Source: Pomacea canaliculata
Lineage: Eukaryota; Mollusca; Gastropoda; Architaenioglossa; Ampullariidae
DNA: 64,000 bases
Assembly: GCF_003073045.1 (NCBI RefSeq)
Contig: NC_037594.1
Span: forward strand, 30,306,737-30,370,736
Direction: 5' to 3'
Both the position numbers and the translations under genes were made by a program. Shown here in pieces: positions 3,880-46,547 of this stretch (its first letter is position 1; each line of letters starts with the position of its first letter). Under the pieces are notes generated by a model. That model was given only the letters and a program-made list of their open reading frames with translations. It was not told the DNA's origin and made no database searches.

Positions 3880-6800
3880 TTAAACAGGCCCAAACTTTTT
3901 GCAAAGCTTATTAAAAGTTGTGTGAAGAATAGTACGCCATTTGTCCTTCAGCTGCACGTTGGTACGCTGCATCCCAAGCTGGGAGCGAATGAGTGCCCAG
4001 TTGCCCACTCCATGCTGCTGCACTGCTTGGTAAAACTTTTCCTCCTCTGAAGCTGTCCACTTCAGGTGCTTCTTGTGACACGTTCGCAATTTCTGCTTGG
4101 GCCTTTTGGAAGGACTCTCATCAAGACCTGTGGAGAATGAAATTTTAAATATCTTCTAACTCAAAAATTAAGACTTCAAATTTTCTTGAAAATGTAATGT
4201 TAATGTAATGAAATATTATTTGCAAATAAATAGTTCGTCTTATCTCAGTTAACTCCCCACCAGCCTCAACACATACTTTTCTAGAGGTTAGTGACATTAT
4301 GTGTGACACAGATGTAGACACACTGTAAAAATGAATGTGTTACTGTATTCGACAATTTTATAATGTTCTCACTCCCAAAATAAATTGTGTGCTACTCTTG
4401 CTACTTTTATAAAGGGTTATGATGTTCAGTGAACAAAAATTTAACAATAAATTGCAGGTAGTGACATAATACCATATACAGTAGCACATTTGTGGTGAGA
4501 TGAGTTTCAGCTGATTCAGTTAGAATCAAAATAAACACTTTCTCTATCAACATACAGAGTTGAAACAATGGTGAAACACGAAAGAAGTAAGAATGTATTT
4601 CTGTCAAGAAGCTTATTCATGAATCAGCATCCCTAATGAGACCAAATGAGTCTTGAACATTCAGTTCAGCTCAAGGCATGCAAAAGAAGGATGCAAAAAC
4701 CTTTGCTAAAGAATGTGTGTGTGTGTGCATGCAGACATTTGTGAGTGCCATTGCATGCATGCATGTGGGATCAGCATGTTTGCTTTAAGTAGACTGTGAA
4801 TAACTTTGAACATTGGAATAAATGTATTGTCATCATTCTCCTCTTCCTCCCTTTACAAAAATAAGCAGCCGGTGACTGCTCTCACTCCCCTGTGGGACCC
4901 TGTGGTATGCTTGCCTAGCGAGCATTGTAAAAATAGGGTCCCTGCCATCCAGCCAGGCATGCCCTAAGAGGCGACTAAGGTGGACACCTCTCCTACAGGT
5001 AAAGTAGGTTGTGGTAAGGCTAACAACACCACCATGTATAAAAAGCGTGTTACAGAAACTAACAACAGAGTATTCGTCACGGATGGCGAAGGTAATGAAG
5101 CACACCAGGAGACTGGACTTATGAGGGTCGACAGCCAAACCCAAAGGGAGCTGGTGCCCCCACAGTGGACATGGGGTCACCTGGAGCGGGCTTCAGCCGA
5201 TCAACATCGGTGGTGGACTCTGCAACCTGATGCATGAAGAGGAATAGATAGATATTCTGCACTCACTGTCGTCACACACACTGTCTCCTGATGACTTTGT
5301 CTGTTCCGTGCATAGCCAATCGCTCTTTCTTTCAGGCTCCACATAACTCCTGTCACTATCACTGCCATCGATGTGACTATGACTTTCGCTGCACTCTGGT
5401 TCAACTCTTTTTTTATTTCTGTGATGACCCAGTTCTGAAGAACCTTTTCCGCTGTCAGACGATTTACTACTTCCCCTGGTCCTTTTATATTCACTTTGAC
5501 TACTTGCAACAGAATCGTGTAAATCAACTGTACTTCTCGGCGATTCACTCTGAGAAAACTTACTTGGGCTGAAAAAAATAATTCTTTGGACATGAAAATC
5601 ACGACAAAACCATCATAGCTGACTGACAAAACACAAAATCTTCTGCCAAAAAAACAGCCTATAAAATTTGTTTGCATTTGGATTAAATCCCTTTAAATTC
5701 TCCATATTAAACCAAGATATTTTATGCCAAAAATATTTCATACACAACTATAAATGTCTGCATAAAAAATAACAAAAAATTATATGAACATCACGGCAAA
5801 GTTGATAAAATTTATGAGGAAATCCTGGAACCTTAGATAAGGGAGGCTACCACTTTTGAACGTTTTAGTTAAAAAATTTTCTCCCTTTACAACTACTATT
5901 GTAAGTTGAAGCAAAGGAGCTTGGTAACATGACAAGTATTTGTGTTCATTCATTTCTTTTTTTTAACTAAGAACATACACTTTTTTAGGTGTTCTTTCCA
6001 TGCAGCTGTCAATTTCATCTGAAAACAATAAATCAAGACAAAGATAACACATAAACAAAACTAGAAAATTAAAAAACATAAATACCTTGTAAAAGAAAAA
6101 CCTACATATTTTTTAATTTACAAAAACAGATAAATTAAAAAAGCTCACAAATTAGGAAAGAAAAACTATAGGGTGAATTAAAAACAAAACTAGATTAATA
6201 TGGGCAGTTAATGACACAGTGGCTAAAGGGCATGTTGCATGACAGTGAGAACTGTTCTATCTCAGCTTCAACATTTCAATGGATGTGAGACCTTTTGACA
6301 GGGTTGACAACTGGTCGCTTTTCTGGGGTACTCGAATATGTACATGTGTGTGCATGTATGCATGCACACGTTTGTGTATATATAGTACTTTGGGCTTAGT
6401 TTTGGGGGATATTGAGCTTTATAAAATACTCACTGTTACCTTTGCAGTAACTAAACAAAAAAGGCTCAAACCTGGTAAAGGCAACTTTCTTTACTTATTC
6501 CTACTTATTACAAACAAGCAAACACATTCTTGATCATCATATATTTTCATTCGAATAATAAAACTCAAAATTAAAAATCAAAGAAATATCAACATTGAGT
6601 ATTATGCTTTATGTACTAAAACTCTGAATTAAAGTGTCTATTACAACATGCAGTTCACATAGGATATTTTTCACAATATCTTCGCATTTGTACCCTTGAT
6701 TAAAAGTCTTTATATATTTACATTGAACAGACATTTTCAGGACAGAAGCTTTTAGTACCTTCTTCACTCTGTTCCTCTTCCTGCAAGAGCCATCATGCGC

Positions 6801-9800
6801 TCATAAACAGCAGAAACTGCTTTTTCCGTAACCTGTAATGCAGTTATTTGGTCTATGTCTTAATATTATTTGAGAATTCCCAAAGCAATCCTGAGAGCAG
6901 CATACAACAGTAAAGTCCACACACTGTTGTCAATAGGGTCTTGAAAACTGTGACTGAAGCAGCAGGTAACAAAACTAATTTTACCATATCAAACTGATAA
7001 ACATGTATGTAAACAAAAGTTCCTACAGCATGTTTGTGGTCACAAAACATCACCAAGCTTCTAAATAAAGACCAAAACATGGGGAATTGATTTTGACAAC
7101 AGTTGATCCCCAAAAAACATCAGCAAAAATAAAATTAAGAAGTTTTTAATCTGTATAGAGACACATGTTCTCACCTACCCAACCCATCCCCCAACAAAAA
7201 TTACTGTACATTAATTCTTCAGCCTTATAGAGAAAATCTATGTTTACTTTAACGAGCAAAATGGCATTATACTCAATCTTAACCAAGTCTGTACCAGTCA
7301 AATCAAAGAAAATTTTTACACTAAGATATAGCAATAATTATACTTACCTGTGATCGTATTTGCTCCAGATTACAATAAAGCTTTTTCTTGTTTACTCTGT
7401 TGCTAGTTACCATATCTTTATTTGCTTTGAATCGTTTCAAATTTTTGCAAGTTACTTTTCTGAAAAATAATAAGAAAGACTGAAAGAAAAATGTTTTACA
7501 AATATTCTCACAAATGACATAAACGTAAGACTAAAAAGACAGAAATACTACTGGGGAATTGAGATACAATCGGCTTCAACGCGCTGGCAGCTACCAAACA
7601 GAAATTAAGAGAAAAAATCCTTATGCATACAATCGTATCACAGTATACAGTAGCAGGTATAGCTGACCTAAAAAAAATAGCAAGTAACAAACAAGGGTGT
7701 GGGAAAGCAGGGTGTTCAAAACCCCTACTTATTTTGGGGACTGCTCCTCTCCCTGGCTGTCTTACTTTTTCTAGCACTCTGAGGTCAAGTACTCAGTCCA
7801 CAGCTGAGTAAAGTTGAAGAAATATGTTGTCACAGGCATTAAATCAGCCGATGTGAACCACCTACAGATTCAGATGTCATTACTCTGACCAAAGAGTTAT
7901 TTCCAATGACATATTTCTTGCCTTCAAGTGGCTCTTCTGTTTCACTATAAAGCCATGTGAAATAGACTGTATGACACCAGCAAAAACGGCAATTTATGAG
8001 TTTGAAATCAGCTATGTTTAGAAATTATTGGGAAGAAAATAACTGATTTTTTTAAATTTGATTAATTCACAGTCTAAAAATGCAGCTATGACAGCCCATC
8101 TTATTAAGTTGTTGAGTTTTGTCCCTTTCTCCACTTTTATTACTGAGCCCCATGCTAATGTCAATCAGTATGCAATAAGATATCTGCAAGAATGCTGTGG
8201 AGTGACTGCATGTAAATCCATGGAGTACAGATGTTTCCAAAGTGCTTTGAGCAAAATTTAATAAATACCTCTTTGAAAGTTGAGATGGTGGTGTTGAAAA
8301 TGTATTCACAAGCTGCAAAAAAACGAAATAAAATTATATTGTTAATGAAGTCTTACACTGGGTTTTAACTAGACATCGTAACAGAGGTGAAGTATGATAA
8401 CCATAGTGCACAGCAAAGCATGTAAGAGAAAATAAAAACAACACAAGGAAATGCAAGATCAGGGATAACAAATGAGACACCCATCAGAATGTTATATAAC
8501 AGAAACCATTGCAAGAAATGTTTTTTATAAAGTTTTTTAAAGCTGGAAATTAAAATAAAGATGGAAAGACGGATAAGAAACTCCTTACTCCATAACACAG
8601 ATTCTACTTTCCATTTACATTTTCTTTGTTCCATATACTCTTCCTAAAATATGCATGTATACACTGTGAGGTTCAACATTTTATTTCTTTTACAGTGCTT
8701 TTGAACTCGTTTTTGTCAGCTCTGAAATATAAACTCAAAATGTACAACAGGACTGCTACAAAGAAAACTACATCAGTACCTATGAAAATTTGAAAACTCT
8801 AATTCACAGCCACTAATTTTCCTACTACACTAGTGTAAATATAGTTACCAAAGTCAAGACGGGGGTTTTGAAAGTCTCGTAGACAGAGGTCATGAAATTT
8901 CCAACTGACTCCATGTATTTTGCAAAAGACTCTTTCTCAAGGGATGAATTTGGTTTTTGCTTTGCTTTAAGAATTTTTTCTATCTTTGTGTTGACTTTTT
9001 CCTGCAAAGAGAATACACCTATTAAACAATAGCAATCAGACAAAGATAACATCTTTAAACTCAATGCTAATTATTTAGCCTATGTGAGAAATACTGTAGG
9101 AATAATGCTGAGTGCAATAAGAGCAGTTTTAAAGCTATATTATACTATACAATAAAATGGTAAGGAGTATTTTTATACAGACTATTTCTCCTTCAAACAT
9201 TACAAACTTACTCCATATGGACACAGTGAAGACAGCTTCTCACTTATCAATGCAGCAAGATCATAGCGGTCTTTTCGGCACAATACACAGACTGTCTGTA
9301 GGGAGAAAAAGGAAAGTGCTTGTTTAATTAAACCCAACACAAAAAAATTCTCACAGAGAAAGAGTTCTCAAACTGACTCTTTGAACAAATTTTATCAAGC
9401 TAACACTCGAATACACACACACAACCACAGAAGCAAACAAATTTAATACAAACATGCATACACAGATATACACACATCTGCACATATACATGCATCAACG
9501 CTTATACAAAAATATATCACAATCATCACATGTACATGAAATGAATATAAAAAGCAAAGGAAACAACCTGCAAAACTGTTTTTTGACGAAGTATCTTTGC
9601 TTCACTGACTAGATTAGGGAAGTCAGTGATGTTCAGCTCAAGCCTGTTGATACACTCAAGTACCAATCTGAATGATGAGAAAAAGTCTTCAAAGGCATCC
9701 TCATCCATTGGTGATGTGTCTAGATTTTGTACATGAAACAAATGTGCAAAAAGTGCAAGGAAACAGACTTCTTTCTTGTTTACAACACCAGGTTGATCTC

Positions 9801-12059
9801 TGATAATGCCAAACATACCTGCAACAACAAAAGCTGCTTATTAAGCAAAACATCTACTCTTGCAAAAATTTCAGTGCCTTACCTGCACTTTACATGTTAC
9901 ATTCACATGATTTCAAATTATCAACTCAAAAATTAGCCTGCTGTATTTGCTCAAACATTTATATAATTCACTCCTAACATGATAACCAGAACTGCTTCTC
10001 CAGTACCATATTGGCTTATTTCATTTTTTAAAGTAATATATCAGTGGCTTTACACTGCTTCCCTTGTAAACACATTACGGTTTTCAAAGAGCGCTCTGAA
10101 TAGTCCCCCATGGAAAAAAAAAAAAAGAAAAAGAAAAAACTTATACCTGCTTGATCTGTTCTATAACTGAAACTGTGATGTGGATACAAGCATTTACAGT
10201 CTGTATTAGTTTTTTAAAATAAATTGCGATCAGAGAGCAACTGCTGGCTACATATATTTCATCATCCCATATGGCATTCTACAGACAACACATCTGCATG
10301 TTAAGTTGAATGTATTCATGTGTGTGTCTCATTGTTTGAAAAGTTCCATGAGCTTGCTCACAGAGCCAGGATATGGTGATATATGAGTTAACTTTATTAT
10401 ATTATTATTATCTTGTCTACATCACTATTATTTCAGTTCTGTTCTTTCTTTAATGTATATGATCAAAGTTTTTTTCTTCATTTTAAGCCCAATACCCTAT
10501 CCCATCCAAAACAAACTACCGTCATCAGCCTTTTGATCTACCGGGGGTGAATGCAGCGGAGAGTAACACCCCTGGCACAGACCTGATAGCTTCAAAACCT
10601 TTTTAGACCCAATCTCATAAGGTTCCGCTTGTCACTACTTTTAAAACCCTTTAGGATGGTGACAGCTCATTGTTGCAAATGCCAACACTTCACCTATATC
10701 TTGCAGCAAATTAAGAACTATAAATTTTACAACAGTTGATTGGAAAGTTATTTATAGCAATAAATAAACTGAAGAAGACATCTTTCCCAAGATGGTGTAG
10801 CCGGACTGACCATGTTCCTCGCTAGGGCTAGCACTGCGACCTCTAGCGTCAAATCAGTCCATTCCTCTTTAGTCTTTAAGGGAAGAGGACGGAAGTTCCC
10901 AAGAAGAACTTTCCACTAAAATTCTAGCTCTCTTTTGTCAGGTGCATTGTCTAATCTCTACCTCACGTTGTGTTGGGGTTTTTTTCACATTCACTACACA
11001 CCCGCAATCAGCCGACCTTGGAATCCACAAAAGATTCTGCTTTTCCCATACAAAAGTGTATTTTCTTTGGTGTGTCAACTCCATGGATCTTCATGTGTGT
11101 ATCTGCTATTGTGTAACAACTACATGGACAGCACAAATCTCTCTCATGCTAGTAATACACGTTCACATAAATACGACATGTACAAGTGCCATTATTTGAA
11201 AAGTTCTGTAAAAGGATATGATTTATTTTTGGAATTATATAAATTGAAGTTTTTGGCCATGCTAGCAGTTGAATGTGGAACTAGCACTCTGAAATGCCAC
11301 TAAAATCATTATTTAGTGCAGCATGAACAAGAGAGTATCTGTGTTTCACTTAGTACAAAAAAGTCAGTGAACACAAAAGTCACATAATGAGAAATAAATT
11401 GTGAAACTTAATGCAATAATTATCACAGTTAAAACGGTCATCTAAAAAGAACTGATGACGTTTAGGTGAGTGTCAAGCAGATATTGTAACAGGCCTATCA
11501 CAAAATGATTCTAACATATTAATTATGCATTTGTTTGTTTATAAGTTAATGATGAAGATTGTACCCATCTGCCCATTACATGGCAAGCTCCAAGTGAAAA
11601 TGATGACAAAGAACCCAAAAGGCATGTTTTTAAATACACAAATTAAAACTTAAATGAGAATGCAAAACAAGAAAAAACAATGTACTGGACGAACAGCGTG
11701 ACTCGAAATAGCGAGCACCTTGCCATCTGATACAGGAAACGTAAGGAAGTTGTGTAGCAAGGTCGAACACAGATACAGATCTCTTCATTATCTAACTACT
11801 GTTTACTAAAATTATTGATTACAATTTATCTGTCTTCAAAAATAACAGACTGCCGATTTACTATCCAAGTCGTCATTTAGCAGAGGTGTAGAGGAACAGT
11901 AACAAACAAATTAAAAAATAAACTTACCGTCGATGAAATTTCGAGAAACTTCATCAACGACGAAAGAATTATCCATAAATCGTTTAAAACATAAGGGCAA
12001 AAGTACTCAATGATCCAATCAGCAACAACAAAGTGCACACTTTCTGAGGTTTGATCCAT
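3880..12059 (-). CDS. Telomeric repeat-binding factor-like protein TRF-A (TRFH + telobox Myb), frame-disrupted as assembled
   Basis: TRF proteins bind double-stranded telomeric repeats as dimers within shelterin. Minus-strand exons: 11928-12059, 9568-9818, 9212-9295, 8849-9001, 8269-8312, 7348-7459, 6759-6780 (or to 6832), 5979-6018, 5267-5568 and 3880-4127. Exons 1-5 give a helical TRFH-type region beginning about 11 residues after the start (DWIIEYFCPY). The final exon carries a Myb domain with KWTASEEEKF, GVGNWALIR and the telobox core LKDKWRT. The 302-base linker exon is Ser/Asp/Glu-rich. Exon 1 is one base shorter than its TRF-B counterpart: after FCPYVL the expected RFMDNS...DEVSR continues only in a shifted frame, and the literal frame would stop in exon 2. 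With that base restored and the 22-base exon 7, the total is 462 residues. It is either a decaying paralogue or an assembly error. The family call is firm; functionality is uncertain. Confidence 0.85.
4840..5245 (+). repeat. Dispersed repeat, possibly RTE-LINE 5' region
   Basis: This GC-richer block in the AT-rich last intron of TRF-A contains a reading frame (4980-5237) with no counterpart in TRF-B, and phrases such as GGGTCACCTGGAGCGGGC. Its texture matches repeat sequence I associate with molluscan RTE-type elements, but that recognition is from memory. The block ends about 20 bases from the splice donor of the TRF-A linker exon (exon end 5267). It could alternatively be a SINE or a lineage-specific element. 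Confidence 0.45.
9819..11927 (-). other. TRF-A intron 1, otherwise featureless
   Basis: This is a 2.1-kb intron between TRF-A exons 1 and 2. A GC-richer patch at about 10500-10920 may be an old repeat, but I could not assign it. No exons or RNA genes were seen. Confidence 0.5.
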
Positions 12060-12266
12060 CGTCTCTGTGTTCTCCCTCGCGTCCTAACTCTTCGTTGGCG
12101 AGTACACTCCCTTTGCCCATCAACTCGCTCGATCGTAGGTCATTTCACAAACTCATCTGCTTATATCTTGTAAACTGAGGCGTGCGAATAAGTTTAGCCA
12201 CCATTTTACTAACCAAAACGGTCGCTTTGCCTCGGTATTTTTCTCTTTATACTATATCTTTTAAAC

Positions 12267-12759
12267 CAGTGATTCTCAAAGTATTTCGGAGCGCGGATCA
12301 ATTTACTAAAATCAAAACTACATCGGCCCACCGAGGCCTAAATTCAATCACTCTGTACCGAGAATTTCACATTTAAATTAGCCGCATTTGTTTCATTACA
12401 ATTCAAAACTAAATGTATCTTTGTGACAGTAGTATAGTAATAAGTTTACATTAAATTACATTCTTCAGAAAGTACACATAATAATTACAAATAAGGACGT
12501 GCATTGCGTTACTAAGGGTAACGGATGACGCAAAGTTCGCGCTGTGACGTCAAGACTTGGTTGGTCAGCTAGCGTTTTGTACCAACGAGCAACTGGCCAT
12601 GGAGACAATTAAAACTGGTGTGCAATCAATGCTGGACTAATTAGTGTATCTGGCGATTTAAACATCACTTTGCTGACATATGATGACTGTCAGCCGCGGA
12701 CCACGTACTGACATGCATGCGGCCCACAAGTGGTCCGCGGACCACACTGAGAACCACTG
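12267..12759. mobile_element. hAT-type MITE just upstream of TRF-A
   Basis: The element starts CAGTGATTCTCAAAGT and ends ACACTGAGAACCACTG, which are imperfect terminal inverted repeats. The flanking 8-base duplications are TTTTAAAC (12259-12266) and TTTTAAAG (12760-12767), matching at 7 of 8 positions. The 8-bp target duplication and CAGTG/CACTG termini are typical of hAT elements. It is 493 bp long with no transposase frame, so it is non-autonomous. It lies 208 bases upstream of the TRF-A start codon and so occupies the likely promoter region. Confidence 0.85.
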
Positions 12760-15426
12760 TTTTAAAGTTAAAATGAAGATTTTGTCATCATTAAATTTAC
12801 AATCAACTTGTATTCTGACATTTTTTAACTTATTATATGCAGAGACTTCGCTGTTCGGGCACTCATTTAGCTCGAAGCACCTCACATACAGTGTACCGAC
12901 ACGCAAGCGCAAGTCTCGTCAATCGTGAATTCCGCTTTAAAAAATGTTGAATGTGCTATTTAAATCCATATTATTATTAATTTATAGTCATTAAATGACC
13001 GGCCCCCTTTTTTCATAGACTTCGCTTGTTTGTTGGTCATTTATAACTATCATTGCAATGTCACGGCTCTACGGAACAGTTAACGATATAGTCGACAGTA
13101 CACATGCAGCGTGCATATATTGTGACAAAAAGTTTTACTCTAAGATGGCTCTTAGGTAGTAAAATTATTTTATTATTCTTGTTATTCTGGCTATAATTTT
13201 TGAAAGCATGTGGCATGAAGTTTAAAAGCTCATCTGGTTCTTATATAATTACGTTTTTAGTGTGACATCCAGGCGTCCGATGGGCGTCATGCGACGACAA
13301 AAACGTACAGCAATTAGTCAATTACTCAGTACTGCTATCAAAGAAAACCCACAACACTGGTTCATTAATACTGTTTATGCATATATTTCAAAATGAAATA
13401 ATTAGAAGCAGCCTGTTGCATTGGAAGTGTGTTTAATGAAAGATTTTTTTTCCCCCCGACAACCATCTGGTATAAAAATTTATATTTTTCTCTCAAGTGC
13501 TCTTCTCTGCTGCAAACACCAAAAATATAACATGTACCCATAAAAAATGATACAGCACTACTTATCTTGTATGCTTTTCACATAATGTATAACAGTGTTA
13601 TATTAAAAAAAAGAAAACTGTTTTGTCCCACGACTCCCATCAGGCTTAATTAGCAGAAAAGTTTACACAACTAAAATACTCTACTGCATTTGTTAATGTA
13701 TGGATGTGGATGATAACATTTGATTTGCATGGTGTATCTGAAGTTGTTTGAAAATATAAAAACAAGATGCTGATGCTGACCAAAACGAACAAGAGAAAAT
13801 ATTGTGACTAGTGAAGCAATGCAATATTGCCAAGAAAAAAGTGCAGCAGAGTACAGAAATACACTAGCATAATGAAACAAAAAAGTGGTAAAACTCGACT
13901 GACTTTTGTTTTAAGAAGCACAGGGAAATCACAATATCATCATATCCTACACCTGAAATAATGCATTTTTCGTCTAGGGCTAAAGTTACTTTCTTAAGCA
14001 GGCATGTGTCTGTCTCCTTTGACGGGTTATATTTGCTTGGCCAGTAAAACAATCCATACCCAGCCCCCCCACCCCTTTCTCACATTAATTTAATTAACAC
14101 TGTATGTTGTTTATCATGACTAAGAACCTGTGCCACCTACTGCATCTGCTCCCACAAAACCTTGTGTCACCTGGAGTGATCTCTGCTTCACTTCCAGGCA
14201 CAAAGGCGTTTCAACTCTTTGTAGTTTTTCCTCCTCCTCCCACTCATCTACTATTGACTCCTCTGCCTTCATGTGGATGATTTGCCACTGTTCAGCACTG
14301 ACGGTCGTCATGTGGGAACTAATACACTTCCAGTCATAGATAACAGCCGTCATAGGGGACAAAGCCCTGCCCTTTGTCCCACAGTTTAAAACAACAAAAA
14401 CTGTACTGTTTTTACGTCGGTCAAAAATATGTTTTACCACCGCTGATCGAAGTAGAAACATCCAACCTTTGACACACGTTCACGCAGTTATAACGTGGAA
14501 GCTGTCAGTCAATTTATCTTGACAGCCGTAATAATAAGATGGCCGTCATGATTACAAAGTATAAAGCTAAGGACAAAGCGTAAAACACTGACCACACCGT
14601 CTGTCTCAGACCATTGTTTGCACGAAGCACTGCGCGTCTCTCAGTCTCAGCCAAATCATGTTGTCAAAGTTACGAGAGTGTAAAAAGTCGACACAAAACA
14701 GTTTCATGACAAAACAAAGCAAAAAAATAAGTAAAATCAAATGGCCGTCATGACTGGACAATGTCTTTTAGTTTCAAGCAAAATTTATATATTTCTGTAA
14801 ATCTGTTTGTGCTTCTGAGATTCTTAGCAGATATTTAATATAAAGTTAGCGTTCCGACAACCATTTTTTACATTTAACTTACGTTGTCTACTAGACAAAA
14901 GCGATTATCTCGGTGATCAAAGTTTCCGTAATTTCAGGACAGAATACCATGACTCCCATCAGCATGAATTCATATCGCGTTAGTTTTTGTTTTGTTTTGT
15001 CTTTTGGCAGATGTATGTTGACAAATACACTTTTTCTAGAAATTTGTTAGGTGAAAAGTTTCAGTCACTACAATATACACCTTGTTGCATTAACTTAAGC
15101 ATGAACATCATGTGTCACTGTAATCAATATTAAATTTAACGACCAAAAGATGCCTGAAAAGTATGTTTTACATGTTAGCAGTAGTCATAATTTTAGCAGT
15201 AACAACATTTCTCATCAGAAGTCACCATGGGATCAACAACAAAAGTAGACAAAAAAGAAACTAAAAATCCAGAATCACTTCATACATCATCAAAAGAGGA
15301 AAAGATTCCAAGGAAACAAGAAAAAAAAATTTTTTTGTGCATTTTGCCTGAAAATGTTTAAAATTTCTCCACCATCAAAAAACAACCGAAAGGAATTGCT
15401 TGGTCTATGGCATATGATATCGCATC
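12760..15426. other. Intergenic between TRF-A and TRF-B
   Basis: No confident gene was found. A minus-strand frame at 14120-14461 (113 codons, acidic near EEWEEEEK-like sequence) has no recognised domain. The heptamer CCGTCAT and near variants recur at about 14303, 14347, 14541 and 14743, and ACTCCCATCAG occurs at both about 13631 and 14951. Together these hint at an old unclassified repeat. The 3' UTR of TRF-B must also lie here, immediately left of 15427. Confidence 0.45.
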
Positions 15427-18400
15427 CTAAGGTGTCCCATTTTTTTTACAAATATTACGCCACTTGTCCTTCAGCTGAATGGTTGAACGATGCGTACAGA
15501 GGTGGGACCGAATTAATGCCCAATTACCCGCTCCATGTTGCCGCACTGCTTTGAAGAACTCCCGTTCTTCTGATTCAGTCCATTTTAAACGTTTCTTGCT
15601 ATTTGGTTTGGGGCCCAAGCTTAGTCTCAGTCTTCTGAGTGACAGTATCTTCTGTTTCTTTATTCTTTTGGTTAGGCTCTCAAAAGCGTCATCAGAACCT
15701 GTGGAGACATAAAGTACCTTATATAATAATTCGTCTGACAAGGTATATAGTGGTTTCCATGAACAGCTTGAAACAGTAAACTCCATCACCTAGTTCTATA
15801 GTGGGAAAGCAGTGAATTTCAAGTGGTTCCCCATGGGAATCATTTCCCTCTTTCCACCACCCTTTAGCAAACAAATCTGGTACCTGTTCACTAGAGGGTG
15901 GGCCAAGGTAATTTTCCAGTAATTGGCCCAAGAACTCATCATTTATAAACTGTCATTTTTATAGCTCTTAATACACTAGCCCTGGGTATCTCTTAAAACC
16001 GACACAACGTAAGCTCACGGCCTCTATGGCACACTGCGTATCAAGTAAAATAAAAAAAAAATTTATCTTATCTATAGCCCTTTTATAAACTTTATACTTT
16101 TTACCATTCTACAAGCTCTTTAACCCCAAACAAACATTAAAAAGCACAAAAATCTACATTTGTTAATATTATTGTTAACTTTATCTGTCTTTTTCTTACA
16201 TATGTAAAAGTATGTTACTGACAAGAAGTAATGATGAACCATCACCTTTCATGTCCAGTTTATTATACAGTGTCTTATGTAATGAGACATTAAGAGATGT
16301 TTACATTTTCAGATCCTAGGTAAATTTTCTTTACATTTGAAACACTCTTATGTGCATGTTTTTATGCATAGGGAAATTTTACTGACTCACGCAAGTCCCA
16401 AGAACTCAAAAAAATAAATCTGGAATTCTTACAAAACAGTTTACAGTACTACTAGCATGCAAATAAGTGCAGCTGAGACTCCACTTACTGCCTTCAGCTA
16501 TGCTATCTCCAGAGGCATGTCTCTTTTTTCTGTGTGATCTGCCACCACTCTCAACAGACTCAGCAACGCAGCAACTGTTGTCACTACTGCTTCCCAGTTC
16601 AGCCTGCTCAGAATGTCTATCAGGTTTGTTCCTGTTTTTGTAATACTTTTCGGTCTCTTGCTCACTCTTAGAAGACTTATTTCCACTGGAATCTTCACAG
16701 TCACATTCTAAAGAACACCTATTAAGACAATTTTCATGATCTTCACTTTTTTCAGATTTCTCCAGTCGAGAGCAAGATGACTTGTCCTGTCTGAATAAGA
16801 AAATTCAAAATAAATGTCTATCAGGCTACCTACCTACACTGGACTGATGATTCATAAGTTTCCAAAAAGTTCGTGGGTTAGTTTGTAAATGTTCATGAGT
16901 GTAAATGTGGTTTTTTAATTGCTAATTTTTTAAATGCATTAATAACCTTACATAGAAAGACAAATATATCAAATTTGTTTAGATTTAGGACAGAAGTTTA
17001 TGTCATTGACAGGACCAATAAGTAGCACACAGTGAAGGCAAGAGAGATGATGAAGCAAAATCTTTGTATTTTGATGATGATATTATTTATACAGCACTTT
17101 TTCCCACACAGAGAGGCGAGTTCAATGTGCTTTACAAGAAGTGAAAGGCAGTAGGTAGTGAAGAAAAGAGCAACACAATCAGGAAAACATTTAAACACAT
17201 ATGCACAATAAAGATTGTCAGGAACATGAAATGATGATGTCTTTTTGTCTGTATGCCCACACACCTTACCATATGACCTTACCCTTATGAATCTCTTTGT
17301 TGTTGGTTGCTTTTTTGCTTTTTTTTGTACCAATGTCAACAGATTTTTTTTTTCGCTATAAAAGTTCATTTATTATTAGGATTACTTTTTCATTTTTGCT
17401 GTTTGATCTTTTTTTATTCTTTTAAAATTTTTTTTAAAAAAAAACTTACATTTTTTTCTTTAAAGTCTTTTTGGTGCCACATTCAGACTCACCTGAAAAT
17501 GTAAGACTCTTGTTGACTCACAAAGTCTTTGATATTTCAAAGTTTCTTGTTCATCCATCAAGTAAACAGGGTTTCACAATTTTATGTGTTTGAATGAATC
17601 ATAAAGTGTTAAGTGAAATCACAAGGAAACCACAACCAAACTGATGATAATAATTTTCTTCTGCTCCATACCCTAAGCACTTTTGACGCATTTTCATTTT
17701 CATTTGAATCAGACAAAAGGATCTCTATAAAAGTGGAATGGCTGGCGATGTCATACAAAGCAAATCAATTTTTTTTAAAGTTTAGAACATCATAAATGAT
17801 TTGCAAGGAAATAATAAAAAGTGTAAGAAATGTGTTTTATACCAGGTTCTTTGTCACTCCTTTGTTCCACTCTACGGGCCACTGTGAATTTATTGCTAGG
17901 AGACACCAATTTACAGGACATCTGTAACATAGTTATTTTGTTACTTAACCAATGGCTCTTTGAATAAAAGTGAAGGGAGAATCATGTAACAACAGTATTT
18001 ATAAAACCATAAAGTCCACACATTAAAACATTTAAAAGAAGACATTTTACTAAGTTTACTTTCTTTTAATGCTAGTCAAAGAACTAAAAAAGCACTTTGA
18101 AATAATACACTCTTCCCCATTATGTACCATAGCATGTTTTGTTTACACATACCAAACTCCCCATTTCTGACTCATCAATGTTGAAAATAGTTTTATTTTT
18201 TCAGTCGACCCATTTTTATAATGACATTCTGCACCTTAAAATATTCTCCAGAAAATATATGTTTTGATTAAAATAAAAGAAAAACCAATCTCAAAATCTT
18301 AAGTTCATTATAATGAAAGATGTAATAAAAAATAAACAAGGCAGGCATTTTAGAGTTTTAAAAATATTACAAAACATTATATATACATTATTAACCAAAA

Positions 18401-21400
18401 AACATACTATTTATATGAGTTTATAACAAAGAGTAAGAAGTTATTTTTTCAAACACAGTAGTACTGTACTTAGTCATAAGCATGTCTGGACATGCTAAAA
18501 AATAATATCCACCTATATTTCACCATGATCAAGCTTGATAAATCAAGACAGGTTAAAAAGCATTTCACCTTTGAATGTAACTACTTTTCATGATTTAGAA
18601 AAATTATTAACCTCTGAACGTATTCTTTCCAGCTTATGTGCAAGATGATTTTCATTTTCAGTCTGGATTGACATCATGTTCTCCCCTTCTTTTATCCTTT
18701 TCATATTTTTGCTGGAAACTGCTTTTCTGAAAATCAATAAGAAAAACTAAAGGAATATTTTTAAATATTCATTGAAATGAAGCAACAGCAACAAATATAT
18801 ATATAAATCTAAAGTATATGAATGCACTTGTTTACTATTTGTAGTTGTCTAACATGTTGCATGTTTTTTTTTCTCCACTTTCCACTGTTTGTCTAGTCAG
18901 CCACCTCAGCTTATCTGCCATTATTTTGTTTATTAAAAAAAAAAAAAAAATTACCAACTGACATTCCAGCTGAATACAATAATGTTACCCCACCCCATGT
19001 CAGGAATTATGAATGTACTTCACCCGTCATGCTTTTCATCATTACCACTATGTTTAAGAATGATGTGACTTAGTAATCTCATGTCCAAACCCACCACACA
19101 TGCCTGACCCAATCTTAACCAACATTCTCTTTGAGTGCATTGCTCTTGTTCTTCCATCTTTGACCCAGGCCTTACTAGTTAATGGACAACTCTCAGCAGT
19201 TGCAGGTTTGACCTTTAGAGTCCCTCAGGGGTTGGTCCGATTTTATTTGTGCACAAAACCTTTATATCTGATGGTTTTGTCTTATGCCATTTCCCACCAC
19301 TCTTTTGCTGATGACAATCAATTCTACACTTCTATCTTACCTTAAATGGTGTGCATCCCTTTTCAAAATTCAGAATCACGTATCTTAGAAGCCTTCAGTG
19401 GTTGAATACAAACTACAATTTAATGACGCGATAAGACAGTAATGATTCATAAAATGTCAGTCATGCTCCCCAACCCCATGCCTAGACCCGTCAGAGTGGG
19501 TTTAATTGGCCTTCTTTCTTTTTTTTTTTTTTTTTGTCCTTCAGCCAAGAACCTTGGTTATACTGTGATGTTGGATAAGTCTCTAAACAAGTTATAGATT
19601 CTAACATCAGCAGAACTGCATATCCTTCACTATTTTCAATAATAACATGATGTGATGGTACTTTTCTATTCAAACTGCCTACATCTTCATCTGTGTCTTT
19701 GTGTTACCATGACTCCTGTAATAATAATACTGCTACAATTTCTCTTGATAAGCATGTTTCTCACATTTGAGCTCCACTCACCATAATCTGTCCATCTCAA
19801 CCACCAAAATTCTCATCTGCTCATTTGTTCTGTCTGAACTAGACTACTGCAATTCTCTTCTTACTGGCTGTCCACAGTTTTTCATTGATAAGCTTCAGAA
19901 AGTCCAGAACTCAGCTGCCTCTCATTTTCCTGACTCACAAATCTGAACATGTCACACCACTTCTTCACTCTCTTCACTGGCTACCAATTAAAGCTAGAAT
20001 AGACTACAAGCTCTGAACTCTATGCTATGGATTCTTTGAAAGCTACTCACCCACTACTTTACTGAAATCTTGTCTGTCTACACTTCTGCCTAATACCTTC
20101 GCTCCTCAGCACACTCCCACATTCTATCCCTCCCTTCCACAAAGACAGTCATATGCAGACAACGGACATTCTCCCTCTGTACTGCTAAGCAGTGGAACTC
20201 TCTTCCACATCACATTTGCCACTCTGACCCCAAGGCTAAAGTCACTCTCTGAAAACACATCTGTTCACAAAGAACCAACCCTATTGCTTTACATTCTACT
20301 CTTGTACTTCATCTTTATATTGTTTCAGTGTGCCTATGTGTACCTCACTGCCAACTGTTATCTTTCATTTTATTGGTCTGCACAGAGAGTACGATCTATC
20401 TTGGTCATGATGCTGTACACTTTAAGTTCCCATAATAATGGGATTTATACAGCCCATTTTGTGCCAAGGAGGTAAGCTTAATGCGCTTTACAGGATACAA
20501 TTTTTCTATTGTGCAGCTGTCCTCTGTGGCTTGTCAACGAACTCCAGCAGGTCTAAAACTCTGCAACATGACTTATACTGAAGTATTCAAATGAGATCAT
20601 GCTTTCTCTGTATTCGCCATTGACTTCCTGTCTAGGTTCATATATTATAAAAAAAACTTTTTCCACTTTGCTTCTATTTCTTTGCAGGCTTTTCTCCTTC
20701 TTACTTCTCTGACCTTCTAGCTCTCTACACTTCAAGCAGGGATCTTGGTATTTCTTCACCTCATCACCTCCTTTCCATTCTCAGAATCAGAATAAAAATG
20801 TCTGGTAAATAGGTTTGTCCATGTAGCATCAGCTCCCTCCTGCATGTGATTTGCCACCAGCAGATGACATTCTAATTCAAATATGCCATTAAAACAAATT
20901 TGTTCAGAAAAAAAAAACATGGAGTTTCAGGTCTCAAGTTTCAGTCTGCTATTCTTTCATATTACCTGTAGTTTTTACTGTTTTCCTTAGTTGTACAACT
21001 TCTATCCTTCATATTGTTTATGTAATCAAGTAACACCCAGAGCATAACCCTAATGCTGTTGTAGAGTGCTATGCAAATGTACTTTATGATTATTACTTGC
21101 TTGAAACATCTTTGGCAAATGTGAAATCTTAAGGATGTAAATTAAGAACTAATTGCCGTCTGGGATAAATAAAGCCTTATCTAAGAGATTACTATGTGTA
21201 CTTAAAATCTGCTTGCCAACATTAGTCATCTTGACAGAAGAAACAAAGCTGATATGGATAAAATAATTTTTTTTTAAAAAAAAGGTGCTACACTGTCTTA
21301 TCTCTAAAACTTGCAGCAAGGTTTTTTCAGTCTTGGACCAATCACAGCAAAAACGATTACAATTATACAAAACTCAAAGGGAGAATGTGTATGATTTAAT

Positions 21401-24400
21401 TCTGTTACTCTTTATGCATATTTAAGAAACCAGATAAAGAAACATCTGTATGCATGTGAATGCAACAGAGATGATTATATTAAAAATGCAAAATATGAAT
21501 ACCTCTTTGAGCACCAAGATGGTTCCATTGTAAACGCACTCGCAACCTGCACCAGACAGAAGATATAAAGAAAACTTACTGCCAACATAATCTTAAAATC
21601 AGTTTTGATTATGGGACGAAATCAAGACAAGGTGATTACATTCCTATTCCCTTTGTCTCTCTTATTGTGGGATGCATTAAAAGACACATACAACCATAAA
21701 ATGTATGCATCACACACATATACGCACATAGAAAAGACAAATGGATACACATTAAAAAGATACATGCAACCCTAAAACTTAAGGATTCCTTGTCAGCATA
21801 GAGAGGGTTGGCTAGGATGAGTAATGATGTTAGAACCCAAAGGCACATACTAAGCAGATCAATACCAGTGTCACATGGCATACTTTGACCCTGACCTGGC
21901 ACAAGGTTTGGGAAAGGTAAGGCAGTAAGAGATGGGCATCACTATCATAAAAGCAGGCTCGAAGTGAGGGCTCAAAAGTATCACTTCTTTGATTTTATGG
22001 TCATGGGTTTATCTTTACCTTTACCTACATGATTGCAATGGTGGCATGCTCTCACTTTCCTCTTAAAAATAGGACCGACATACTGGACCCCAGCTAAGAA
22101 CGACTTATGATCAAGATCTATTTCCTCGGTTCACAAAAAAAGGGAAGGTGCAATAGTTTACCGATGTCAAGATTGGGGTTTTAAAAGTCTTGCATACAGC
22201 TGTCATGAAATTTCCAAATGACTCGCTGTATGTTTCAAAAGATTCTTCCTCCAGGCATTTGTGTGGTTTCTGTTTTGCTTTAAGAACTCTACTAATCTTT
22301 GCTTTGACATTGACCTGAAAAAAGAAGAAAATAATGCAGATGTTACTGGTCACAATAATATATTGGGAGTTTTAAGAAATCAAGGTGAAAATTTGAACAA
22401 CTCAAGTAAATAAAACTTGTAGTGATGAAGTACTTTGTGCTGTACATTTTCAGTATGCCAGCAAAAGAATCAGTGGATGTAAACAGAATGTGTGTGTACA
22501 AATGCATGTGGCATGACCAAAAACATCAAAATTCCTAGTCATCCCCTTCCCCAAAATAAACTTTGTATTTCTTGTATAATTCTTTAATACAAACGAAACA
22601 GATGGAATGCCGATCTAAGAATTTCAGTCATTGCTTCTTAAGATTGTTTCACTAAAATCTGGTGCTACTGTTGTTTTTTCCTTTTATTTTTCTGATGCTA
22701 TAGAATTAGTTCCGAATGATTCTCATCTTTTGTATTATCAATTTTACATTGATCTTTAAGACAAGTAAAAGTAAAGATGAGTAAAGTAAAAGTTAATTCA
22801 TAGTCTATCAATATTACCATTCAAAATTGCCTATTTACCATATTTTCACACATAGGAGACAGCTTCTCAGTTATCATTTCAGCTTGGTCATACTGGGATT
22901 TCCTGCACAAAATAAAAGCTGCCTGTTTGGGGGGAAAAAAATTCAACACATTAAAATTAAACAGATACCAAGCAATGCCACTAAGATGTTAACTGTTAGA
23001 TTATGTTGCATAACAAAGAAAGCACTGACTCACTATCATGAAGCAACTTATTTGTCTGTGAGTATACACACATAAAAACATGCAATTGCAGTTGCATGCA
23101 CATACATTTATACATATATAGTTAATTCATTCTTCACAATTTTGAAGAATAAACATCATTTTCTAGAAAAGTTTTATACTGCTCTTTTTTCTTTTCCTTT
23201 TCATGCTAAATAACAAATAGCAGTCCATGGATTTATTAATTATGATGACAATGATAATGAAAAATTAATACACTAGCTTGGTCACACCAAGTGGACAAGA
23301 AACCTGAAGCACTTTCTTCTAAACTGGTTTTTCCTTGTCTTTGTAGAAATCCAACTATCACAAATTCTAGCATCTAGGCCATCCTAGCTAAAGATTGCCA
23401 ACCCATTCCAATTCTTCATAACAGTTGGTTTTGACGGTCATTCTTAGAAACACTACCATCAGCAGCACTATAAATTTGGGCCTGGGATAAGCTCTAAAAT
23501 CTAAAGCATTCCTTCAAAAAGTGTGTCCAGGTAACACTAACCAGCATTGGACTATTATCACTCTCCTATCCATAACATCCCACCCCTCTCCTCCTCCTTG
23601 GTAACAGTCCAATATAATATGTGACATCACAATAACTCAATGCATAAATCTGAACAAAGCTGGTATTTATGCATATACCCAACGGATTATTATAGGCAAA
23701 TATTTATCTCAGTATATCATAAAACATTAAACTGGATGGATTGCGGTGGCTGGGATTTACAACTATGCCTGAAAAAAATTGCTGGTTGCTTTGCTTTTGT
23801 CAATATATCCCTGTTTTATTTTAGAGAAATAAATTCACTCAGCTTCATTCTATTTTAAGATTAATTCAATTAAGCATCTGTCATCTTTGATTCAAAATTC
23901 ATACCACATATAGCATACAAACCTGCAAAACAGTTTTTTGCTTAAGTATATCTGCTTCTTTATTTAAGTCATGATGCTCAGTGATGTTCAACTTAAGTCT
24001 GTCTATGCATTTAAGCACCATGGTGATTGATGTGAAAAAGTCATCAAAAGCATCATCTTCTAACACTGATGTGTCTGGACTTTGCACATTAGACAAGTGT
24101 GCAAAAACTGCAAGGAAAACAGCCTCCTTTTTGTTTTCTACATCTCTTTGATCTCTGATAACTCCAAGCACACCTGCAACAATGAAAACTGTTTATACAG
24201 CTTTGCATGAATCTCAAAAGTTCCTTTTAATGAAATAGGTTCACTAAAGAAATTATGTAGTTAGTTGTTAATTATGAATTTATCATTGTGTGTCAAAATA
24301 ATGCTGCTAATTAAAAGCAGCAAAGTACTTAAGCAGACTGCCAAATTATTACACTAATTAATAATTATATGTATGGAGGGGAAAGTTGGGGATGGTGTAT

Positions 24401-27400
24401 GGGATATCTCCAGTTTTGCAAAAGTTTGTTGGTCTTTAAAAACCTGGCTTTGGCTAGGATTAAAGGGATACTCAAGGCTTGTGATAAGGCTGTGGCAACG
24501 GTCAAACGTTTCAAAAATATATTTAGTGACAATTACAGAGCACAAGAGCAATACAGGAAAAGTAAAGGATTTGTTTCTCACTTAATTACCACTTATTAGC
24601 ACTATTTCGGTTGCCGATGTTTATAAATTCGAAAAAATCCAGTGAAATTGACCCTTGTGTGCTTCCGCAGAGTAACTGCGATAGCTTCCCGAGATGGTCA
24701 AGCAGACGAGTCTGGGTGTGACGTTAGTCAGAGATGTACAGAAAGTGTCTGTGGTCATTGCGAAGATTTGACGTCGTCATCGGTGGTGTCTTGTGAGTTA
24801 ATTTAGGTTTTAAAGTGAAATTTTCAAAGCACAGTTTTCAAAATTACAGAAAACAGTCTGTTTCACTTGGTCAGCAGTCTTGGTCATATGTCATAAGGTC
24901 ACATGACGGAGAACAAGACTTTGTCTAAGTAAACGAAAGAGTCCTATGTAATTTCTCTTCTTAAACACAACATGCTAAAAAACCTTCAACTTTTTTCCAT
25001 ATGAACAGACGCGAAAATAGACAAGATTCAAGTGAAACATACTCTTTATGGGATTCTAAGCAGTTTTATTTTGCCTTTAGAATCCCTTTAAGCACTATAT
25101 AACTCTATAATTATTAAAGGTTTTACAGGTTAGAACTTTCCGTTCTCAAGAAACATCCTGAAAGCATCACAATGCAAATTAGGCATCTGGGCTATCCCAA
25201 TAATTTTGTATACACCTGCTCCAAAGTTATTGGGACAGACCAGACTTATCTTCCGACTCTTAACAGGAGGACATTTTTGAAAACATCTACAAATCTATGT
25301 GATGATATGCATGTCGTGTGGGGAGAGTTTTGTCAGGCTCTCAATTCTGTATACCTGCAGGTAGGACCAACAGACTGATCATGAGGTTATCCTTTGTTGC
25401 TTGACCATGTGACTTATCAACTCTACTGTGTATGAACAAATGTAGATCATATGCAAGTGTGAATAAGAATTGTATATGATTCTGTCTGGTGGAGTGGGTA
25501 TGAATGTGTTATGGTACTGTTTGTTATTGTTAAGCTGTGATTCTAATCCTTGCTTTCCTAGAGAGCTACTACTAATTGCCCTCTGGGACAAAGATTTTAT
25601 CAAAGAAAGAGGTCAAACCCATGTTATCATATCAGTACACAGGTATGCTAAACCAACAGAGTCCAAGCTCTCCCACTGGCTAAGACCTAGACCATTTAAC
25701 AGCATGAATGTACAATCCTCATGTCTTTAATGTTGACCTCTTTCTGAACATCAAATCAAACTTTATTGTCTGTCCACAGAAGTCCAAGACAGAAATTTTT
25801 CTTTTGCTGTGAAGCCAACCACATATACAAATATAATATGAGCATATCACAACATAACTGCCAGACATACCCATATAAGGCATTCAACACCTACACCTGC
25901 ACACCTACACCTTCTCTCACAAACATGTGAAACCTTCTAAGGAGGTAGGCATTTTTTCGCGTATGTGGTACTTTGTAGCGCCTGCCTGAGGATAACAGCT
26001 GAAATTTGGGGTGGAGAGGGTGTGTTTGGTCTGAAATGATGTTATGTGCCATCTTTCTGACTGCATGAAGATACGTCAGAAAGTGGCAGCTGTGGTGTAC
26101 CAGTAATTTTATTTGCCTGGTGGATGGCTTCTTTGACGAGAAGGTGACCATACCAGGAGGTGATATTAAATGTCAGGATGCTCTCAACAAGAGACCTGTA
26201 AACAGTCTCCAGCACTCCAGAGCTGACATTGAAGATGTGGAGTTTTCTCAAAAGGTACAGATTTTGTTGGGCCTTTTAGTACAATTGGTTCATGTGATCG
26301 CTAAAGGATAGTTTTCTGTCAATCACTGTACCAAGGTACTTAAAACTGGCAGCCCTCTGTACCTGCTGTCTTTTGATTTGAATTGGTGGGGAGAGAGGGG
26401 TACTGCCATCTCTTCCATTGTGTGCTCTCGCAAAGGCCATCTCCTCTGTTTTCTCAACATTCAGCTTCAGGAAGCTGTGGTCAAACCAGTCCTCCAATTC
26501 CCCCACGCAGGCCAGGTACTGTGACAGGGACTGCTCATCTTTGAGGTAGGCCACCAGGGCATGTCATCTACATACTTAACAAGTTTGAGAATAGCACTGT
26601 TAATAGTGATTTCATTTGTGTATACAGAAAATATGATAGGATAAAGCACACATCCCTTCGGGGTACCTGTGTTGAGGATCTGCTTGTCTGACAAAATCGT
26701 TCCATCCATTGACATGGACTCATTCAGATGAGCCAGACCCTACAGTCCCTGTAGGTGGAACTCTGCAACCCACCCTCTGTGGTCAGTCCTTCAGAATGAT
26801 TGTATCCACAGAATAAGGCTGGTGTCTAGTCTAGTAGGCACTTTACCAGAAGATGTGGCTGGACTGTGTTCAAGGAACTGGGAAAATCCAGGAAAAGGAC
26901 CCGAATATAGGTGCCAGAGGTGTCCAAGTGTTGTAGGAGATTATCTAAAAGAATGAGAGTGGCATCAGACACTCCCTTACATGGTTTATAAATGAACTGC
27001 AGAGGATCAGGCGATCGGCTACAGTGGAGGTTATCAAACTTCCTACAACCTTCTCCAAACACTTGGCCACAACAGATGTGAGAGCCACAAGTCAAAACTG
27101 TATGTTTAGTTTATTGCTTGCAAGCTCCAAACAAAGAAAAATGTCTATATTTGTTGTAAACAGAAATACAGCTCTCCCACATATTTTACCCCATTAGCAG
27201 AGTCAATTATGTAGCAAGATGCAAGATCACACGAAACTCATCTTATTACCAGATTACATCGCTGAAGCGCTGAGATCCAAATTCTAAACTTCACAGCAAT
27301 GTAGCAGCATGCATGGTCCCACATACACACAATTATTTTCTCTCACTCTTAATCGTCCTTCTAGCAATAATTATCAGAGGCACACACACACACGGCACGT

Positions 27401-27798
27401 TTATTAGCCCTGTTCAAGAGTGATATCGCAAGTAATTGGTACAAATAGGACTCTTCGTAGCAACCAGTTGTGTTCATCTATAGCCAGAGGGCAGAATTTG
27501 GAAATGATGTAGTGGGTGATAGTGGTAGAAAACAGTAGTTAATTCTCAACATGCTAATACTGTCTTAATCTAATGATGTGTTCTACAAACTAAAAAAATA
27601 TATAAACTACACTATAAAGAACAGTGTACCAGACGAATTACTGTAAGTACAAGTCCGTTACTTACCATCGATGAGATATCGAGAAACTTCATCCAGCAAA
27701 TATGAGTTATCTATAAAACGTCTCAGAATATAGGGGCAAAAGTATTCAATAATCCAATCAGAAACAAGAATCATATCGTCAGATTCAAAATCTTCCAT
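15427..27798 (-). CDS. Telomeric repeat-binding factor-like protein TRF-B (TRFH + telobox Myb)
   Basis: This is the intact tandem paralogue of TRF-A and presumably a shelterin-type telomere-binding protein in the nucleus. Minus-strand exons: 27666-27798, 23923-24173, 22839-22922, 22162-22314, 21503-21546, 18612-18726, 17843-17921, 17450-17492, 16489-16790 and 15427-15698. They sum to 1476 bases (491 residues) and all are open with GT-AG junctions. The TRFH-type region starts near residue 14 (DWIIEYFCPYIL) and spans exons 1-5, including VIRDQ, NKKEAVFLAVFAH and LKAKQKP. The linker (exons 6-9) is Ser/Lys/Glu-rich and probably disordered. The Myb domain near the C-terminus shows RLKWTESEEREFF, GAGNWALIR and LKDKWRN. 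No acidic or basic domain precedes the TRFH region. The start ATG is the first in the exon and aligns with the TRF-A start. LINEs and a TTAA-flanked MITE occupy introns 1 and 5. TERF1- versus TERF2-type identity cannot be decided by eye. Confidence 0.9.
17065..17140. repeat. Short interspersed repeat linked to GAT tract
   Basis: A TGATGATGATATTATTTATA start is followed by a block resembling the common 'stem' of L2-type LINE/SINE 3' tails (CAATGTGCTTTACAAGAAG). A similar GAT/AAT-tract arrangement occurs at about 29058-29110 and 33006-33100. It lies in a TRF-B intron. Confidence 0.4.
19095..20500 (+). mobile_element. L2-like LINE fragment (reverse transcriptase and 3' end)
   Basis: Plus-strand reading shows VPQG and SFADDNQFY (the RT A/DD region), then phrases typical of L2/CR1-type C-termini such as NLGYT and LDYCNSLLTGCP-like wording around 19840-19875. 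The 3' tail ends with AATGCGCTTTACAGGATAC near 20500. Several stops and frame changes show that it is old. It lies antisense to TRF-B within intron 5. Confidence 0.7.
20510..21095 (+). mobile_element. Second LINE 3' fragment
   Basis: A plus-strand frame yields FAGFSPSYFSDLLALYTSS followed by SSPHHL, matching the end of L2/CR1-like ORF2 proteins (usually 'GLSPSYLSDLL..Y.PSR.LRSS'). An AGAGTGCTATGCAAATGTAC tail is near 21065. It is 5'-truncated and lies directly behind the previous LINE fragment, antisense in TRF-B intron 5. Confidence 0.6.
24464..25087. mobile_element. TTAA-flanked MITE (piggyBac-like)
   Basis: The ends are AGGGATACTCAAGGC and, inverted, AGGGATTCTAAAGGC (13 of 15 positions match). 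TTAA occurs directly outside both ends (24460-24463 and 25088-25091). TTAA target duplication is the mark of the piggyBac superfamily. No transposase frame is present, so this is a 624-bp non-autonomous copy. A truncated second copy lies at 39138-39240. The element sits in TRF-B intron 1. Confidence 0.75.
25740..27095 (-). mobile_element. Non-LTR retrotransposon (Rex1/CR1-like), 5'-truncated
   Basis: Minus-strand frames show successive reverse-transcriptase blocks: DPLQFIYKPCKGVSDATL and LFLDFPSSLNTVQPHLL near 26840-27060, GTPKGCVLYP and a YVDD catalytic box near 26560-26680, FKYLGTVIDRKLSF near 26300-26350, and SLVESILTFNITSWYG near 26130-26200. The 3' UTR ends near 25745, where the minus strand reads CAATAAAGTTTGATTTGATG. 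The endonuclease domain is absent (5' truncation), and frame changes separate the blocks. It lies in TRF-B intron 1, in the same orientation as the gene. Confidence 0.85.
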
Positions 27799-46500: not shown

Positions 46501-46547
46501 ACAACAGATATAATACTGCAAAAGAAATTAAAGGAGAATCAGCATGA
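40503..46547 (+). CDS. SLC17-family (sialin-like) organic anion transporter
   Basis: This is a major-facilitator membrane transporter of the SLC17 group (sialin, VGLUT, VNUT, phosphate-transporter-like). Exons: 40503-40766, 41473-41706, 42159-42342, 43055-43188, 43368-43526, 43694-43826, 44099-44342 and 46335-46547. TM1 has YSLRVNISFS; an Asn-rich lumenal loop follows (NHT, NES and NAS glycosylation sites). Next come the LGSTFWGYVLTNIAGG motif, RYGGKR, TM4 RFLIGVCLGTISPA, VTDSPLDHP, the late FTGFSYGG segment and a QPWA-type C-terminus. Introns 2 and 6 begin with GC (GCAAGT, GCATGT) rather than GT. The last junction is one base out of frame: exon 7 ends in phase 2 but exon 8 needs phase 0, and read-through of exon 7 stops at once with ATG TGA. 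The exons sum to 1565 bases, one short of 522 codons. The TM4 glutamates of sialin are replaced. Substrate unknown. Confidence 0.9.
44925..45645 (-). mobile_element. RTE-type LINE fragment in transporter intron 7
   Basis: Minus-strand reading gives LFNILGENIQETLHDH, then IQLEEVNSLKHLEAMLSRDG (the usual KLEEV.SFKYLGA.L..DG block), then further left segments like FGHDLAQH, YPVGYVGG and EEKLGGKCEGMDLF, matching the C-terminal region of endonuclease-reverse transcriptases of the RTE type. Stops and frame shifts are frequent, and the FADD catalytic block is missing. It is antisense to the transporter gene. Confidence 0.7.
46002..46197. mobile_element. Short hAT-type MITE
   Basis: The ends CAGTGGTGCCCAAC and, inverted, CACGGGTTCCCAAC are imperfect terminal repeats. 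The flanks TTTTATGC and TTTTACAT could be a decayed 8-bp duplication, with the three differences all transitions. The interior is rich in GGGCC/GGCACATGGGCC. It is 196 bp, non-coding, and lies in the last intron of the SLC17-like gene. Confidence 0.7.

Follow-up and report, generated by a model that had tools for sequence, protein, structure and literature searches.

Vertebrate genomes carry two paralogous TRF genes, TERF1 and TERF2, and the invertebrate TRF gene is generally described as single-copy. Against this background, a locus of the gastropod Pomacea canaliculata raises the question of whether an animal TRF gene has been doubled a second time, independently of the vertebrate event. The window analyzed here is a stretch of 64,000 nucleotides (nt; RefSeq assembly GCF_003073045.1, contig NC_037594.1, positions 30,306,737 to 30,370,736 of the forward strand), and all coordinates below are counted from its first nucleotide. 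Two adjacent genes on its minus strand, A and B, appear to combine an N-terminal TRFH-like region, a long hinge and a C-terminal telobox-type Myb domain. Taken jointly, our analyses make it probable, if well short of certain, that the pair arose by an independent tandem duplication followed by long and mostly purifying divergence, that B is a complete TRF-like gene, and that A is a gene of the same design carrying either a sequence error or a very recent null mutation.

Both genes were modeled on the minus strand by setting each splice boundary explicitly, and every internal boundary in both models is of the GT-AG type. Gene B (15427..27798; ATG at 27798, stop at 15427) comprises ten exons joined in a single open frame of 491 amino acids (aa). 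Its exon 1 (27666..27798, 133 nt) holds the start codon and the first TRFH helix, and the TRFH region continues through exons 2 (23923..24173, 251 nt), 3 (22839..22922, 84 nt) and 4 (22162..22314, 153 nt) to exon 5 (21503..21546, 44 nt), where it ends and the hinge begins. Exons 6 (18612..18726, 115 nt), 7 (17843..17921, 79 nt), 8 (17450..17492, 43 nt) and 9 (16489..16790, 302 nt) encode the hinge, and exon 10 (15427..15698, 272 nt including the stop) encodes the Myb domain. Gene A (3880..12059; ATG at 12059, stop at 3880) was also modeled with ten exons: exon 1 (11928..12059, 132 nt, one base short of its counterpart in B), the TRFH exons 2 (9568..9818, 251 nt), 3 (9212..9295, 84 nt) and 4 (8849..9001, 153 nt), exon 5 (8269..8312, 44 nt), the hinge exon 6 (7348..7459, 112 nt), a micro-exon 7 (6759..6780, 22 nt), the hinge exons 8 (5979..6018, 40 nt) and 9 (5267..5568, 302 nt), and the Myb exon 10 (3880..4127, 248 nt including the stop). 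A longer exon 7 of A, starting from an upstream acceptor, contained an in-frame stop, and the 22-nt exon was used instead; a model worked out by hand, in which exon 7 is skipped and exon 8 measures 38 nt, is frame-consistent too.

An earlier note, made from the sequence alone, had described two adjacent same-strand TRF genes at this locus, and its outer coordinates proved exact, as did the equal lengths that it listed for exons 2, 3, 4, 5 and 9. Its one-to-one alignment of all ten exons did not hold, because exon 7 measures 22 nt in A versus 79 nt in B (a difference that depends on the model of A) and exons 6, 8 and 10 are also unequal. The full architecture that it ascribed to both genes was found in B, with its uninterrupted frame, and not in A, where a frameshift in exon 1 breaks the frame as assembled, so that in this assembly only B can be counted as a complete TRF.

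The assignment to the TRF family draws on both ends of the proteins. Each carries a single Myb domain at its C terminus, recognized by Pfam PF00249 at E = 6.3e-11 (42.7 bits) in B and E = 2e-13 (50.6 bits) in A, and the Myb domains of TRF2 and TRF1 are among the Protein Data Bank (PDB) matches of both proteins. The KDKWR core of the telobox is common to both recognition helices, the full stretch being VQLKDKWRT for A and IQLKDKWRN for B; with respect to the telobox consensus, VxLKDKWRT, it is kept in A and changed at both ends in B. At the other end, residues 14-218 of B alone align to a TRF2 TRFH chain in the PDB (E = 0.0052), and when a profile built from A and B was searched against 177,635 distinct PDB sequences, the five that it retrieved within E = 10 were all telomeric repeat-binding factor 2, the best of them at E = 0.0099. 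When the A and B profile was compared by hhalign with the TRFH segments of human TRF1 and TRF2, the probability was 65% over 180 columns (E = 5.9e-5), and a local rerun gave 74% with a score of 32.9, against 10.6 for the best of 60 column shuffles and 6.2 for the reversed profile. These matches point to a remote but specific homology, which is weak for A alone. Because the remote TRFH match and the Myb domain stand at opposite ends of the same genes, membership of A and B in the TRF family is the best reading. The telobox-type Myb domain claimed by the earlier note was thus recovered in both genes, and the TRFH-type region was recovered for the pair and for B, with A by itself remaining weak.

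The origin of the pair was addressed with a quartet of A, B, human TRF1 and human TRF2 (LG+G4 model, one MAFFT alignment), in which the human TRFH segments of both proteins, as well as the Myb domain of TRF1, were verified. The topology (A,B),(TRF1,TRF2) was the best by 65 log-likelihood units in the concatenation, by 42 in the TRFH region alone and by 25 in the Myb domain alone, and the approximately unbiased (AU) test rejected the alternatives in each partition (AU p at most 2.8e-5 for TRFH and 1.1e-3 for Myb). In sequence terms, a duplication of A and B independent of that of vertebrate TERF1 and TERF2 is supported. Since introns are kept in both copies, the tandem duplication took place at the DNA level.

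The two copies have diverged extensively. Their proteins are identical at 216 of 447 aligned codons (48%), with a synonymous distance (dS) of about 1 overall. Identity amounts to 58% of 205 codons in the TRFH exons 1-4, 69% of 51 codons in the Myb domain and 31% of 169 codons in the hinge. The ratio of nonsynonymous to synonymous distance (dN/dS), a pairwise value that averages both lineages, is 0.46 for the TRFH exons (95% interval 0.30-0.68) and lower, at 0.13, for the Myb domain (0.05-0.35). At the DNA level, blastn found seven matches between the loci; exons 1-6 and 10 have one each, and the matches extend no more than about 60 bases into the adjoining introns. The flanks of A and B showed no similarity in any of three comparisons. 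Because DNA similarity is confined to the surroundings of exons and is absent between the flanks, the duplication is old and the two copies are not haplotypes. The independent duplication proposed in the earlier note is supported by the quartet, and the two contrary outcomes that it had named, a pairing of A with TERF1 and B with TERF2 and a mis-joining of haplotigs, were both examined, the first being rejected with the four proteins and the second excluded by this divergence. As a separate observation, the synonymous distance between A and B is lower in the TRFH exons (0.61) than in the Myb domain (1.41; bootstrap P 0.035), which may reflect partial gene conversion. No third TRF copy or remnant was found in the window (tblastn with both proteins, E up to 1); the tblastn rows fall on modeled exons or their edges, with the sole exception of a plus-strand row (E = 0.46) beside exon 1 of A. 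Among viral contigs, 109 pattern matches yielded no confirmed relative.

The history that we propose is as follows. An ancestral animal TRF gene would have been duplicated in tandem, introns included, in the lineage of P. canaliculata and apart from the vertebrate TERF1/TERF2 event, and both copies would since have diverged for long, with purifying selection prevailing at least for the most part. In B, the TRFH region would serve for dimerization and docking, and a long hinge would connect it to the C-terminal Myb domain, the presumed reader of duplex telomeric repeats; A would be a paralogue of the same design, whose frameshift presumably reflects a mistake in assembly or base calling, or else a null allele of very recent origin, and not the sign of an old pseudogene. 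By analogy with known TRFs, dimerization, TTAGGG binding and telomere localization may be expected of B and, if intact, of A.

Several results weigh against this history and are gathered here. The Pfam TRF model matched neither A nor B at E up to 1 (A being searched without exon 1), and A alone, likewise without exon 1, reached the PDB TRFH chain over residues 53-166 at E = 0.34 only, a weak similarity. With the whole A protein, the top PDB match was c-Myb, whose three repeats sum to 6.7e-8 against 1.8e-7 for TRF2; by single stretch, the TRF2 Myb domain was the best (33.9 versus 23.2 bits for c-Myb). The quartet contains just two outside proteins, both human, and depends on one alignment of remote sequences, and pairwise dN/dS values cannot pin the constraint on A alone. 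In addition, A as assembled is without a full-length frame, and the openness of its remaining exons is partly by construction, as the acceptor of exon 7 and the donor of exon 8 were picked for frame continuity. A check on the neighboring BBS5 gene with a human probe gave 12 coding blocks without an internal frame change (of 23 tblastn rows, the others being chance or secondary matches; 2 or 3 of the 12 blocks extend into intron, with stops in two), which argues, if anything, against an error-ridden assembly. Finally, the MRN-inhibiting iDDR core was unrecognizable in either modeled hinge, despite its reported conservation in invertebrate TRFs.

The last point deserves a fuller account. The iDDR core of human TRF2 is described as residues 460-472, in which W465, L471 and F472 form a plug (PMC11260466), and the iDDR is reported to be conserved in invertebrate TRFs, with a looser signature of basic residues followed by acidic ones (PMC10497418). 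When the core motif was scored on W465, D469, L471 and F472 of human TRF2, the best score was 8 in the hinge of B (shuffle P 0.99) and 23/71 in the hinge of A, there without the tryptophan (P 0.027). Five iDDR patterns applied to the three minus-strand frames of positions 3880-27798 produced no convincing core match; the sole pattern matches were an unconvincing WKVESVLW in intron 4 of A (8590-8613), an intergenic tryptophan-acidic stretch (14228-14248) and one in the Myb domain of B. For the looser signature, the largest drop from basic to acidic residues is 9 in the human stretch, and A and B show about the same, with drops of 10 (shuffle P 0.043) and 9 (P 0.17), respectively. A diverged iDDR may be present in the hinge of A or B.

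If both copies are functional, they might have split their roles, with one capping telomeres and the other changed in DNA or partner specificity. This proposal is compatible with an independent duplication and is judged on its own; we regard it as possible and advance it tentatively. The low identity of the hinge, where a partner split, if any, would be expected, speaks in its favor, together with the altered ends of the telobox and the differences in exon 7 and in the C-terminal tails, whereas the KDKWR core is retained in both copies, and two sequences cannot tell which side has changed. Judged from the sequences, a functional split like that of TRF1 and TRF2 is possible.

The fate of A depends on how its exon 1 is interpreted. 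Translated from its ATG, A agrees with B as far as the end of DWIIEYFCPY, and the frame then shifts within short runs of T and A (4 and 3 bases; 11983..11989, minus strand). The frame is lost after codon 24, inside the first TRFH helix, whose position in A and B we presume by analogy with TRF2. Beyond the break, the rest of exon 1 matches B in the next frame (tblastn and codon alignment), while the original frame, carried onward, meets a stop in exon 2. Over the 18 aligned codons past the break, amino acid identity to B is 67% and dN is 0.18 versus a dS of 0.85 (omega 0.21, interval 0.05-0.79), values that suggest continuing constraint on this stretch. A then has 418 open codons, which begin at the last base of exon 1 and run to its stop codon. 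Under simulated neutral decay, the probability that these codons would remain free of stops fell from 0.068 with 0.05 substitutions per site to 0.007 with 0.1, and the probability that they would be free of both stops and frameshifts was 0.001 at 0.05 substitutions per site, with an indel rate assumed to be one tenth of the substitution rate.

These observations bear on the reading that A is a recently dead pseudogene, in which the frameshift is real and fixed and B is the sole working TRF. The one-base change in exon 1, with the stop that follows in exon 2, is what such a reading predicts, and the unbroken coding blocks of BBS5 suggest that the assembly is not obviously rich in indels. However, neutral decay permits 418 open codons with GT-AG boundaries only briefly, the Myb domain of A outscores that of B on the Pfam model, and the break sits in runs of T and A that, short as they are, could have given rise to an indel error. 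As the divergence between A and B lies far above the range over which a decaying copy would escape stops, selection likely preserved A up to the very recent past at the least. A dead A is therefore unlikely, though it retains some weight, and the favored explanation is a gene maintained at least until then, with the remainder due to a miscalled base or to a recently arisen null allele.

A further reading holds that A is translated from a downstream start or an unseen first exon, yielding a telomere binder that lacks the first TRFH helix and is non-dimerizing or competing. An in-frame ATG at 11976, about 28 codons in and just past the break, would permit this at the cost of about 28 residues, the first helix included. 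However, the stretch before the break is strongly B-like and is identical over DWIIEYFCPY, and because of this likeness to exon 1 of B it was coding in its old frame until recently. We therefore consider this reading very unlikely.

The notion that A and B are orthologues of TERF1 and TERF2, retained as an ancient linked pair, found no support beyond the order of TRFH, hinge and Myb that all four proteins have. Neither copy groups separately with TRF1 or TRF2, both alternative quartets fall 65-66 log-likelihood units behind in the concatenation (AU p 1.9e-5 and 2.3e-5), and identity in the quartet alignment is 17-23% (TRFH) and 33-42% (Myb) to TRF1 and TRF2 versus 57% and 64% between A and B, which leaves this orthology exceedingly improbable. 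A mis-joining in the assembly of two haplotypes, or of repeated contigs, as head-to-tail copies with the same exon lengths might suggest, has negligible probability and is ruled out by 48% identity, a dS of about 1, blastn matches confined to exons and their margins, and unlike flanks.

The surroundings of the pair can be described briefly. BBS5 (28237 to about 37895, plus strand; Pfam BBL5) lies head-to-head with gene B, and their start codons are only 438 bases apart, so a shared promoter is possible. Farther along, exons of an SLC17-type (sialin/VGLUT-like) transporter were recognized at 40473-46547 on the plus strand, with limits set by eye (Pfam MFS_1); sialin is the best PDB match of one exon, and TIGR00894 matches another below its cut-off. 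Within intron 1 of B, positions 26467-26739 (minus strand) are likely what remains of the reverse transcriptase of a retroelement, with a match to Pfam RVT_1 that falls below its cut-off (E 0.0032), and the adjacent frames, to 27110, look alike by eye. Between the two genes, an open frame of 119 aa (14120-14479, minus strand) includes the tryptophan-acidic stretch and is probably due to chance or derived from a repeat; no family in NCBIfam or PHROGs matched it at E up to 0.01. By visual inspection, open stretches at 60110-63572 (minus strand) resemble the exons of a long coiled-coil protein, and the two that were searched matched no family above its cut-off. Rfam gave no match in the window at the gathering threshold.

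Compared with known systems, A and B resemble vertebrate TERF1 and TERF2 in their N-terminal TRFH-like region, hinge and single C-terminal telobox Myb domain, and in being two paralogues per genome. In contrast, the vertebrate pair stems from its own duplication, the snail genes are adjacent, and A and B show low TRFH identity to TRF1 and TRF2 and no recognized iDDR core. The vertebrate duplication is placed in one account at the chordate root, from a single ancestral TRF (PMC8887477), is dated less exactly in another, to metazoan evolution (PMC11670948), and is described in a third as later than the origin of the iDDR (PMC10497418). A and B most likely descend from a gene of the invertebrate TRF type, from which the present locus differs in its two adjacent copies and in the lack of a recognizable iDDR core of the kind reported for invertebrates (PMC10497418). 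A lineage-specific extra TRF copy in an animal is described for medaka, which is a fish, the two genes there being named as TERF2 paralogues (PMC5309834). In Ustilago maydis, Trf2 and Tay1 are likewise described as two duplex telomere binders acquired separately from those of vertebrates, but they are structurally distinct proteins and not sister duplicates (PMC11670948). For Entamoeba histolytica, three TRF homologues are reported (PMC6175992). Among the matches listed in the literature search, judged by titles and the openings of abstracts, there was no report of tandem invertebrate TRF genes; the pair may already be annotated, and we make no claim that it is unreported.

We consider it doubtful, but worth stating, that both genes are active and divide telomere protection and replication between them, as a second animal split of the TRF1/TRF2 kind in which no recognizable iDDR core remains and MRN is restrained otherwise. 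If a tandem pair has indeed been kept in another animal lineage, it would amount to a natural repeat of the TRF1/TRF2 duplication experiment, and it would allow one to ask which functions part when a shelterin TRF doubles and how far the stated wide conservation of the iDDR holds.

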